This document shows, piece by piece, positions 12,651 to 63,425 of a stretch of DNA of 64,000 bases. Under the pieces are notes generated by a model. That model was not told the origin of the DNA and ran no database searches. It worked only from the letters and a program-made list of their open reading frames with translations. How positions within the stretch are numbered: position 1 is the first letter of the stretch; the number at the start of each line of letters is the position of its first letter. Position numbers and translations under genes: made by a program. This DNA is from Acidobacteriota bacterium (GTDB lineage Bacteria; Acidobacteriota; Vicinamibacteria; Vicinamibacterales; 2-12-FULL-66-21): contig QHWT01000055.1 of assembly GCA_003222675.1 (NCBI GenBank), positions 230,619 through 294,618 on the forward strand, read 5' to 3'.

Positions 12651-12760
12651 TGGCTTCAGGCTTCAGGGGGTCAGGCCTCAGGCTTCAGGCTTCGGGCTTC
12701 GGTCCGTCTAGCGCACGGCCATGGGCCGTGAGCCCTGAGTCATAAGCCATGCGTCATCAT
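12651..12760. repeat. Heptad word array (GGCTTCA type and TGAGYC type)
   Basis: Two stretches of degenerate 7-bp words lie between the rhomboid and GH51 genes. The first repeats GGCTTCA/GGCTTCG about seven times with one slipped unit. The second, after GGCCATGGGCC, reads in steps such as CGTGAGC, CCTGAGT and CATAAGC. The rest of this 249-bp gap (12531-12779) contains no gene. No promoter for the GH51 gene is obvious. Confidence 0.6.
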
Positions 12761-20379: not shown

Positions 20380-20435
20380 GAGGTGCGAGGTCCGAGGTGC
20401 GAGGTCCGAGGTCCGAGGTCCGAGGTCCGAGGTTT
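20380..20435. repeat. Perfectly phased heptad array, unit GAGGTCC
   Basis: Eight consecutive 7-bp units start at 20380: two GAGGTGC, five GAGGTCC and a final GAGGTTT. The last unit overlaps the TAA stop of the minus-strand universal stress protein gene (stop at 20434-20436). The same heptamer, in its reverse complement GGACCTC, recurs within the M56 peptidase gene near 37085-37220. No gene lies in the rest of the 20210-20433 gap. Confidence 0.85.
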
Positions 20436-36379: not shown

Positions 36380-36796
36380 ATGGCAACATCCCCGCGAACC
36401 CCCGTTCCCCGGCCCACAGACGCCGAACTGGCGATCCTGCGCGTGCTGTGGGATCGCGGCCCCAGCACTGTCCGGCAGGTACACGACGTCCTGGGACGCG
36501 AGCGTCCGGCCGCGTATACGACCGCCTTGAAACTGCTGCAGATCATGACGGAAAAAGGACTCGTCGAACGCGACGAGCGGGACCGCACGCACGTCTATCG
36601 TGCGCGGCTGAGCGAGGAGCAGACGCAGCGTCAGCTCGTCCGCGATCTCGTGGATCGCGCGTTCGGCGGGTCCGCGACCAAGCTCGTCATGCAGGCGCTC
36701 GCCTCGCGCCACGCGTCGCCCGACGAGCTGCGTGAAATCCGACGCGCCATCGACAGCGCCCGTCAGGAGAAGGAGGCCCACCATGACAGGGATTGA
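36380..36796 (+). CDS. BlaI/MecI/CopY-family transcriptional repressor
   Basis: About 138 residues from ATG 36380; the longer frame from 36341 would begin inside the promoter. The winged helix has PTDAELAILRVLWDRGPSTV, GRERPAAYTTALKLLQIMTEKG and VERDERDRTHVY, and a C-terminal dimerisation part follows. It overlaps by 14 bp the M56 metallopeptidase gene, the classic BlaI-BlaR1 arrangement in which the protease relieves repression. It most likely binds the two dyads directly upstream. No beta-lactamase gene is adjacent, so the regulated function is probably something else, such as the repressor's own operon or the divergent PPIase-sigma-kinase run. Confidence 0.92.
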   Translation: MATSPRTPVPRPTDAELAILRVLWDRGPSTVRQVHDVLGRERPAAYTTALKLLQIMTEKGLVERDERDRTHVYRARLSEEQTQRQLVRDLVDRAFGGSATKLVMQALASRHASPDELREIRRAIDSARQEKEAHHDRD

Positions 36797-39686
36797 TGCG
36801 TTGCTCCACCAGCCGGCTGCGCAAGCCGTCGGATGGGCGCTGCTGCATTTCGTCTGGCAGGGGACCATCATCGGGGTGCTGACCGCGCTCGTCTTGCTCG
36901 CGATGCGCCGCAGCGCCGCGGATGTCCGCTACGTGGTGTCCGCCATCGGCCTCGCGTTGATGCTGACGCTGCCGATCGTCACGGGCGTACAGACGTGGAA
37001 CGCGTCACGCGCGCCTTCGCCGCTTCGCGGCTCCGACCCTCGCGCTTCGCGTGTCGGCGGGGTCGGCGAGGCAAGCACGTCTCGGATTTCGGCTCCCGGA
37101 TCTCGAACCTCGAGCCTCGGACCGCGGACCGCGAACGTCGGATCTCGCACCTCGGACCGCGTACCTCGCACCTCGGACCTCGTACCTCGGACCTCGGATC
37201 CCGGATCTCGCACCTCGACCCTGGGCGACCGACTCGAGACGTTCCTGCCGGTGCTGATTGGAATCTGGCTCGCGGGCGTGATGTTGCTCAGTCTGCGTCT
37301 TCTCACCGGCTGGCTGTGGATTCAGCGCCTGCGCACGCATGGCGCGACCGCGGCAGGAGAATCGTGGCAGCGGATGGCGACACGTCTCTCGCGTCGGCTG
37401 CACATCGCACGCACCATCACGCTGCTCGAATCGACGCTGGTCGATGTGCCGACGGTCATCGGCTGGGTGAAACCTGTGGTGCTGCTGCCCGCGAGTGCGC
37501 TCTCGGGCCTGTCGGCGCAGCAGCTCGACGCGATTCTCGCCCACGAGCTCGCTCACATCCGCCGCCACGATTACCTGGTCAACCTGCTGCAGACACTCGT
37601 CGAGACGCTCCTTTTCTATCACCCGGCCGTGTGGTGGCTCTCGCGACGCATCCGCGCCGAACGCGAGCATTGCTGCGACGATCTTGCGGTAAGTCTCTGC
37701 GGCGATCCGATCGCGTACGCCAACGCGCTTGCCGATCTCGAATCGCTGCGATCGAGCGACCATCACTTCGCGATGGCCGCCACGGGCGGATCGCTCCTGC
37801 ATCGGGTCCGGCGATTGACCGGCGCTCCGCCGTCACATGCGGGTCGGGGTCCCGCGTGGCTTGCTGGGAGCGCGGCGCTGATGGTGCTTTGCGGGATCGC
37901 GCTGGGCGCCGACGGACTGCGTCAGGCCTCCACGACCGGCACGCGTCCATCGCAGTCAGCACCGGTCGCGGGCCCGATCCTCCCATACACCGGAGACGAT
38001 CTGATGCCCGTGCTCGCGGAAGCTGACGCGGCGCTCCAGGCGGCGATGCGCGCGCTGCGGCTCCATCCGTTCCTGGGCGCGCTGCCGTGGCCACAGGAGG
38101 GCGTGATTTCGAAGCGCCTCGGCCAGGCTTACGAACAAGCCCTTCGCGCGCAAGAGGAAGCCCTCCGCGCCCAGACCGAGTCGATGCTCGCGCACGTCGA
38201 GACGGATGCGCTCCTCGACCAGCACGCAGCCCTCAGTGCACAAGCTGAAGCCCTTGCGTCGTTGAAGGCAAGCACGGCCCCCGCACTGGCGGCACTCGAT
38301 TCGAACATGGCGTCGGCCTCGGCCGCGCTCGCCGCGTTGAGCGAGACCACCACCCCGGCTATCGCGGACCTCGGCGCGACCATCGCGGCCCTGACACCGC
38401 AGGCGTCGACGACCGAACAGAGCGTCAGCATCAGTCATCACCAGGACGACTCGTCGGGGAACTGGATCTGGTCGAACAACGGCGAGAAGCTGTCGGTCAG
38501 CTACTCGGGACGCTTCGACTTCACCGACGACGACACGGATCTGCGGGAGATTTCGTCGGACGGCTATCTGAAGATCTCCGATGCCGCGTGGATCGGCCGC
38601 CACACGGTCGAGATACAGGAGCGCGGCGGGCAGCTCGAACACCGTTACTTCGTCAACGGGTCGGAGCGCTCGTACGAGCCGGAGGGACGCCAGTGGCTGC
38701 GCGAGAACCTTCCGAAATTCGTGCGCAACACGGGCATTGGAGCCGAGCGTCGCGTCGCGCGGTATCTCAAATCCGGCGGACCGTCCGCGGTGCTCGCCGA
38801 AATCGCGCGGATCGACAGCAGCTACGTGAAGCGGATTTACTTCACCGAGCTCCTGGAGCAGGCGACGCTCAACGCGGATCAATACCGCGCCGTTCTGAAG
38901 CAGGCGGGCCGTGAAGTCAATTCCGATTACGAGCTCGCGACGCTGCTCATCGCGATTGCCGACAAGATTCCGGCCGACGAGCCGTCGAGCGCGGCGTACT
39001 TCACCGCCGCCTCGAGTATCTCGTCCGACTACGAGCTCCGCCGCGTGTATTCCAAAATGCTCGACAAGGGGCCGGTCTCCCCCGCGATCCTCGAGTCGAT
39101 TCTCTCGAGCACGAGCTCGATTGAATCAGATTACGAACTGGCCGAGCTGCTGCGGCAGATTCTCGGACAGCAGTCGCTGGACGATCGAACCCGGCCGTTG
39201 TACTTCAAGGCGGTGAGCTCGATCTCGAGCGATTACGAACGGCACCGTGTGCTGAGCGCCGCGCTGCGAGGCACGCCGGACGGCGCGACCATCCTTGGCG
39301 CGCTGAACCGCGCCGGCGACATCGGCAGCGATTACGAGGCGGCGCAGTTCCTGCTGGAAGTGCTGCAGAAGGCGAGTGTCGAGGGGGCCGCGCGCGACCC
39401 GTTCTTCACGGTCGTCAACCGCTTGAACTCGACGTACGAGCGGCGCCGCGTGCTGGACGCGGTGATTCGCAAGCCGGGCGTCAGCCGTGAGACCCTGCAG
39501 GCAGTCCTGCGGTCCGCAAAGGAAATGTCAGGATACGATCTCGCGCAGGTGCTGCTCGCCGTCGCGAACGCGCACACATTGACCGGCGATCTCCGCGACA
39601 GCTACCTCGATGCGGCGGACAAACTCTCGGGTTACGACCAGGGACAGGTCATGACGGCGCTCGTGAAGAGCGAGCGCCGCAAGTAG
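36783..39686 (+). CDS. M56 (BlaR1-like) membrane metallopeptidase with low-complexity insert and SDYE-type repeats
   Basis: About 967 residues from ATG 36783 (AAGGAGG upstream). Three N-terminal membrane helices precede an extracytoplasmic stretch, a fourth helix (VLIGIWLAGVMLLSL) and the zinc motif HELAH at 254-258, with EREHCCDDLA after it. The C-terminal half has no penicillin-binding domain: it holds a helical Ala-rich region (EEALRAQTESMLAHVE) and about nine repeats of 32-37 residues from about 680 to the end, each headed by a pattern S-[DSTG]-Y-[EDV] such as SDYELRRVYSKML and SDYERHRVLSAAL. Residues about 101-146 are six heptapeptides (RTSDLVP, RTSDPGS and the like) encoded by a 7-bp DNA repeat. 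It is the signalling partner of BlaI. Confidence 0.87.
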   Translation: MTGIDALLHQPAAQAVGWALLHFVWQGTIIGVLTALVLLAMRRSAADVRYVVSAIGLALMLTLPIVTGVQTWNASRAPSPLRGSDPRASRVGGVGEASTSRISAPGSRTSSLGPRTANVGSRTSDRVPRTSDLVPRTSDPGSRTSTLGDRLETFLPVLIGIWLAGVMLLSLRLLTGWLWIQRLRTHGATAAGESWQRMATRLSRRLHIARTITLLESTLVDVPTVIGWVKPVVLLPASALSGLSAQQLDAILAHELAHIRRHDYLVNLLQTLVETLLFYHPAVWWLSRRIRAEREHCCDDLAVSLCGDPIAYANALADLESLRSSDHHFAMAATGGSLLHRVRRLTGAPPSHAGRGPAWLAGSAALMVLCGIALGADGLRQASTTGTRPSQSAPVAGPILPYTGDDLMPVLAEADAALQAAMRALRLHPFLGALPWPQEGVISKRLGQAYEQALRAQEEALRAQTESMLAHVETDALLDQHAALSAQAEALASLKASTAPALAALDSNMASASAALAALSETTTPAIADLGATIAALTPQASTTEQSVSISHHQDDSSGNWIWSNNGEKLSVSYSGRFDFTDDDTDLREISSDGYLKISDAAWIGRHTVEIQERGGQLEHRYFVNGSERSYEPEGRQWLRENLPKFVRNTGIGAERRVARYLKSGGPSAVLAEIARIDSSYVKRIYFTELLEQATLNADQYRAVLKQAGREVNSDYELATLLIAIADKIPADEPSSAAYFTAASSISSDYELRRVYSKMLDKGPVSPAILESILSSTSSIESDYELAELLRQILGQQSLDDRTRPLYFKAVSSISSDYERHRVLSAALRGTPDGATILGALNRAGDIGSDYEAAQFLLEVLQKASVEGAARDPFFTVVNRLNSTYERRRVLDAVIRKPGVSRETLQAVLRSAKEMSGYDLAQVLLAVANAHTLTGDLRDSYLDAADKLSGYDQGQVMTALVKSERRK
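37085..37225 (+). repeat. Heptamer minisatellite (CCTCGGA) inside the M56 coding sequence
   Basis: About eighteen degenerate 7-bp units (CCTCGGA, CCTCGTA, TCTCGCA, CCGCGGA) follow one another in frame. Three units make 21 bp, so the protein shows a heptapeptide period. The unit is the reverse complement of the intergenic array at 20380-20435. The insert falls in the loop before the fourth membrane helix. Confidence 0.85.
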
Positions 39687-56386: not shown

Positions 56387-56600
56387 GGATCAGACGGATC
56401 AAACACAATAAGCCACGGATCTCACAGACAACACGGATCAGAACAAAGCCAAATCCGTGAAATCCGTGAGATCCGTGGCTCTAAGAAACCGGATCCGTGA
56501 AATCCGTGAGATCCGTGGCTCTAGGCAAACCGGATCCGTGAAATCCGTGAGATCCGTGGCTCTAGGCAAACCGGTGGATCCGTGGTTGAAGCCGATCCCG
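56372..56600. repeat. Tandem ATCCGTG array with 41-bp higher-order period and inverted flank
   Basis: Between 56451 and 56590 a 41-bp unit occurs about three times; each contains ATCCGTG three times (ATCCGTG, AAATCCGTG, AGATCCGTG) followed by GCTCTA and AAACCGG. The part from 56372 to 56440 has the same words reversed (AGCCACGGAT, TCACGGAT). The array spans the gap between the ftsH stop and the kinase start, both on the minus strand. It has no spacers of constant length, so it is not CRISPR. Confidence 0.85.
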
Positions 56601-63398: not shown

Positions 63399-63425
63399 TG
63401 CCCTGAGCCCTGAGCCGTGAGCCAG
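63399..63425. repeat. Short heptad array TGAGCCC/TGAGCCG
   Basis: Three to four 7-bp words (TGAGCCC, TGAGCCG, TGAGCCA) directly precede the Ser/Thr kinase remnant. They belong to the same word group as the arrays at 12730, 27590 and 33720. Confidence 0.55.

Follow-up and report, generated by a model that had tools for sequence, protein, structure and literature searches.

An in-frame heptamer array in an M56 peptidase gene is probably tolerated DNA of a dispersed repeat family

The window analyzed here, 64,000 nt from the genome of a soil acidobacterium that is probably free-living, contains a gene for an M56 (BlaR1-type) metallopeptidase in which a long heptamer array lies within the reading frame. 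Does this array switch the protease on and off, does its product serve a function in the protein, or is it repeat DNA that the protein tolerates? The M56 gene (36783..39686, plus strand; 967 aa; Pfam Peptidase_M56, E = 1.8e-32) follows directly on an open reading frame for a BlaI/MecI-family repressor (36380..36796, plus strand; Pfam Penicillinase_R, E = 3.2e-28), with a 14-nt overlap. A profile built from 20 M56 proteins found Staphylococcus aureus BlaR1 in the PDB, and the six best matches of the predicted fold were BlaR1 cryo-EM structures. The characters expected of BlaR1/peptidase M56 were found together: an M56 domain with an HExxH motif whose residues are invariant in the M56 alignment, a BlaR1-like helix topology (predicted helices at residues 11-40, 46-76, 147-186, and 358-385), and an adjacent BlaI gene. 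The protein resembles S. aureus BlaR1 (PMC9834060; PDB 8exp-8ext) in helix topology and in its HExxH metalloprotease domain, but its C-terminal half differs and is repetitive, and Pfam found no C-terminal penicillin-binding (beta-lactam sensor) domain in the 967 aa. Because of this, the protein is, judged by its sequence, an M56 homologue that lacks the known sensor rather than a BlaR1 receptor. A plasmid origin of the BlaI-M56 operon was also considered and rejected, as no near match was found.

An earlier note on this DNA had reported a CCTCGGA-type heptamer array in frame within the M56 gene, and both the array and its coding position were borne out. Tandem Repeats Finder (TRF) called periods of 7, 14, and 21 at 37097-37222, with 17.3 copies of the 7-nt period, and a unit scan extended this call to 37081-37222, a degenerate 142-nt array that scored 82 and comprises 20 minus-strand CGAGGTN units. 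The lag-7 self-match of the loop that it encodes was 0.54, compared to ~0.25 at neighboring lags, a value reached in 0 of 2,000 codon shuffles. The only other CGAGGTN match of the window was a nearly perfect intergenic array of the plus strand (20380-20433), in which the longest perfect stretch measures 34 nt; a control scan of the window with the reversed unit gave 0 matches. The sense strand of the M56 array is of the GACCTCG type and codes for residues 100-147 within one open frame of 967 aa, yielding RTSDLVP-type heptapeptides (about RTSDLGP). All six frames are free of stops across the array, and since 7 equals 1 modulo 3, every frame of one strand gives the same heptapeptide. Could repeat reads have been misjoined inside the gene? 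The genome is a single draft in 152 contigs, its contamination is estimated at 3.9%, and repeats are difficult to assemble; however, the frame stays intact to either side of the array, both sides match one orthologue (71% identity over the whole length, in the sister species), the arrays are of short length, and many genes and contigs show the same pattern. We consider an assembly artifact extremely improbable.

The array had been placed before the fourth membrane helix, which is incorrect: residues 100-147 lie between predicted helices 2 (46-76) and 3 (147-186) and coincide in the predicted structure with residues 92-144, the only long stretch with pLDDT below 50. Relative to the predicted helices, the array thus appears to fill the helix 2-3 loop, the position of loop EL1 in S. 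aureus BlaR1, which likewise has a BlaI-family gene adjacent. EL1 participates in signaling in S. aureus (PMC9834060), so an effect of the array on M56 function is possible. The alignment of orthologues called for by the earlier note revealed that the repeat is missing from the loops of relatives. In the sister species and other family members, the helix 2-3 loop is of comparable or somewhat shorter length and of variable sequence (sister species: lag-7 0.27, codon-shuffle P = 0.62; relative G003: 0.36, P = 0.007). Because relatives have a variable loop without the repeat, the array is, on this alignment, lineage-specific among the compared genomes, while the loop itself is old. The loop is about as long in total as its counterpart in the sister species, which makes replacement of older loop sequence, or some history other than simple insertion, possible. 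These comparisons also bear on the idea that the repeat peptide has taken on a function such as spacing or signaling in an EL1-like loop. The match to the EL1 position would fit such recruitment, as would the length of the array, the longest of 85 CGAGGTN arrays sampled; however, no loop residues are conserved among relatives, the predicted order of the loop is very low, and the same heptapeptide occurs in unrelated proteins. A selected loop is therefore unlikely.

The unit proved to be dispersed through the genome. The 19-mer pattern GAGGTSCGAGGTSCGAGGT had 108 genome matches (reversed control, 1), and GAGGTCCGAGGTCCGAGGT had no match in the sister species or in 10 further members of the family and occurred in just 1 of 59 relatives. 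CGAGGTN is not the only heptamer of this kind: GAAGCC(C/T) had 63 matches in the genome and a few in other genomes, and TGGAGCC had 51 in G030, which belongs to a different family within the order. At least three heptamer families occur in the window alone, since GGCTTCA and GCCCTGA arrays, seen at 12652-12757 and 63400-63423, respectively, accompany CGAGGTN; an array of GAAGCC(C/T), the second heptamer family of the genome, lies at 12671..12702 on the minus strand. The window also contains a 41-nt tandem repeat (56451-56574; three copies, 97% matches) with ATCCGTG(AA)-type subrepeats inside, and runs of ATCCGTG also occur after the CGAGGTN arrays of loci L118 and L156. In a census of 560 kb of the organism's own sequence (28 arbitrarily placed 20-kb stretches of the larger contigs), 41 of 84 tandem arrays had period 7 and a further 15 had a multiple of it, with 32 dominant units among these 56 arrays; fifth-order Markov sequence of equal length gave 0 arrays at period 7 and 1 at period 14. 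Only 7 of the 56 lay inside genes, compared to 85% of the sequence that was coding (P of about 1e-32; gene calls are codon based, made in this analysis, and not curated). RAYT transposases (PF01797) were considered as the cause of this genome's repeats and rejected; there were two matches here, and since relatives have similar numbers, RAYT is not specific to this genome.

CGAGGTN itself is a dispersed bacterial heptamer repeat family, present in tandem at many places and mostly between genes, near gene edges. Among the 85 sampled arrays, located by consensus scan, 69 were intergenic and 16 were called intragenic; degenerate arrays are under-counted in this sample because loci were chosen mostly by exact matches. 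On the CGAGGTN strand, 49 intergenic arrays had their nearer gene edge 5' of the array and 20 had it 3' (P = 6e-4). For intergenic GAAGCCN arrays, the counts were 13 and 35 (P = 0.002), a polarity opposite to that of CGAGGTN on that strand but the same if read on the GGCTTC strand, the choice of the G-richer strand being arbitrary for GAAGCCT; the two tests are not independent, because both families often share a spacer. In G030, with its short contigs, intergenic TGGAGCC arrays were too few for a polarity count. Rehm et al. described a gene-edge polarity rule for the G-rich heptamers of Xanthomonas and Nostoc (PMC4692102). The dominant unit here, CGAGGTC, has no GGG, the quadruplex-type G tract of those repeats, and with no G-triplet it offers no obvious quadruplex. 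Our data suggest that the positional rule for quadruplex-forming heptamers also holds for one without G-triplets, in which case the rule may reflect how arrays originate or grow rather than quadruplex function. The M56 array, as a single case, fits the rule: at its 5' end it abuts the conserved segment of helix 3, and at its 3' end it faces a palindrome.

Gene edges were approached closely at several loci. At L116, L120, L142, L144, L145, and L157, arrays stop 2 to 4 bases ahead of the neighbor's apparent start codon (GACCTCGacATG), and their 5' ends occupy the expected position of the ribosome-binding site. At L121, L138, L140, and L146, arrays start at the upstream gene's stop codon, and at L140, the stop TGA belongs to a TGAGGTC unit, which suggests that gene ends have given way to arrays. 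Inverted pairs of CGAGGTN arrays a few bases apart, from which long hairpins are possible, were seen at L123:479-546, L133:2565-2647, and L136:2492-2606, the last between convergent genes.

The palindrome beside the M56 array links it to these intergenic arrays. Directly 3' of the array, a GC-rich palindrome of REP-like type that contains an internal insertion spans 37008..37076 on the minus strand; its 22-nt core (37010-37031) has 14 copies in the genome, the M56 copy included. Side-by-side comparison placed four other copies just 3' of intergenic CGAGGTN arrays. The M56 core lies in coding sequence but is interrupted by the insertion. Together, palindrome and array (about 37008-37222) encode most of the disordered helix 2-3 loop, which, given this shared arrangement, contains the same composite repeat as the spacers between genes.

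The earlier note's proposal that the array-forming process can enter coding DNA was supported, as further genes have the unit in frame, with the insert missing in relatives where these were compared. CGAGGTN arrays lie in genes for an amidohydrolase, a DinB/FGE-sulfatase protein, the tail of an OppD-like ATPase, an MMPL protein, a NuoEF-type fusion, PheT, a DnaE-type polymerase, and TilS, several of them between Pfam domains. In TilS, an in-frame insert of 34-40 aa is missing in all eight relatives (8/8), and in the NuoEF-type fusion, an insert of 17-22 aa is missing in its two close orthologues. One linker site of the DnaE-type polymerase carries different heptamers in three genera: CGAGGTN here, CCGATCC in G010, and CCGCATT/CCGCAAT in G002. 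Intragenic arrays showed no significant strand bias in the enlarged sample (11 antisense versus 5 sense). At L306:812-941, a 130-nt GGGGTGC/GGGGTCC array, similar in length to the M56 array, was called within a 718-aa reading frame. The note's further proposal that the M56 product tolerates the array is supported by the intact catalytic motif.

The range of host genes also bears on the note's proposal of a phase-variation device, in which slippage by one or two heptamers would shift the frame, turn the M56 protease off, and stop BlaI release reversibly. Its arithmetic is sound: changes of one or two units would destroy the protease and changes of three would keep it, so copy changes that are not multiples of three would switch the gene off. 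Heptamer-number phase variation is also known from the hmw1A promoter of Haemophilus influenzae (PMC8262952). However, a phase-variable locus requires a near-perfect, slippage-prone run and a gene with a useful off state. The longest perfect period-7 stretch in the M56 array is only 16 nt (sample median, 25 nt; shorter in only 8 of 85 arrays), compared to 11-24 heptamer repeats at hmw1A. Moreover, the family occurs in TilS, PheT, NuoEF-type, and DnaE-type genes, not in surface genes; a one-unit slip would be destructive in such housekeeping hosts, and an off state useful across the host genes as a whole is implausible. Rehm et al. rejected phase variation for analogous heptamer repeats on similar grounds (PMC4692102). 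Phase variation at this locus is thus unsupported and very unlikely.

We consider it likely that the M56 array is tolerated repeat DNA of a dispersed heptamer family and not a selected switch. A heptamer tract with its adjoining REP-like palindrome may have colonized an M56 loop that was already long, variable, and disordered and then been amplified there, with arrival and growth after the split from the sister species. Spread would have proceeded by copying from other tracts and growth by slippage. Because the unit is stop-free in six frames, insertion in either orientation would require no more than a frame-preserving total length, and its product would be a hydrophilic, unstructured peptide, with presumably little effect on signaling in the M56 protein. 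Selection would clear tracts from folded domains, leaving those in linkers and loops, which would afterwards decay through point mutation. We also entertain, as a speculation that is rather unlikely to hold, a dedicated activity, distinct from ordinary slippage, that copies in 7-nt steps and writes lineage-specific tracts, which extend with fixed polarity as far as gene edges and into linkers. If true, it would explain why one period accompanies many units in a genome, why unrelated heptamers in other phyla show a similar polarity, and why one DnaE linker carries different heptamers in different genera. Repeat DNA here repeatedly supplies housekeeping genes with new, unstructured protein sequence, and the TilS, DnaE-type, and M56 linkers offer comparative sites for following tract birth and decay across genera. 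Period seven appears to be favored in many bacteria, and genomes such as this one allow its cause to be tested.

In the open-licence literature, we found nothing closer on heptamer repeats in Acidobacteria than the works cited here and no description of lineage-specific heptamers that recur in the linkers of proteins. The tandem repeats of constant size and variable sequence known from Bacillus and others (PMC8161180) similarly combine one size with many sequences per genome, but that size is 20-21 or 52 nt, compared to 7 here. Rickettsia palindromic elements (reviewed in PMC10969869) are likewise repeat DNA that lies in frame in unrelated metabolic genes and adds a peptide; those elements measure ~150 bp, whereas the main part here consists of heptamers in tandem, accompanied at the M56 array by a REP-like palindrome. 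The TAACTGA repeats of marine Beggiatoaceae (PMC4679880) are dispersed, mainly intergenic, and occasionally at the ends of reading frames, but they contain stops in one orientation, whereas CGAGGTN is stop-free in six frames and occurs inside reading frames. The heptamers of Xanthomonas (GGGAATC) and Nostoc (GGGGA(C/T)T) (Rehm et al. 2015, PMC4692102) also form dispersed, mostly intergenic arrays near gene edges with fixed strand polarity and are rarer inside genes. CGAGGTN differs from them in lacking a G-triplet, in coexisting with many other units in one genome, and in having in-frame tracts in housekeeping linkers that are documented against orthologues.
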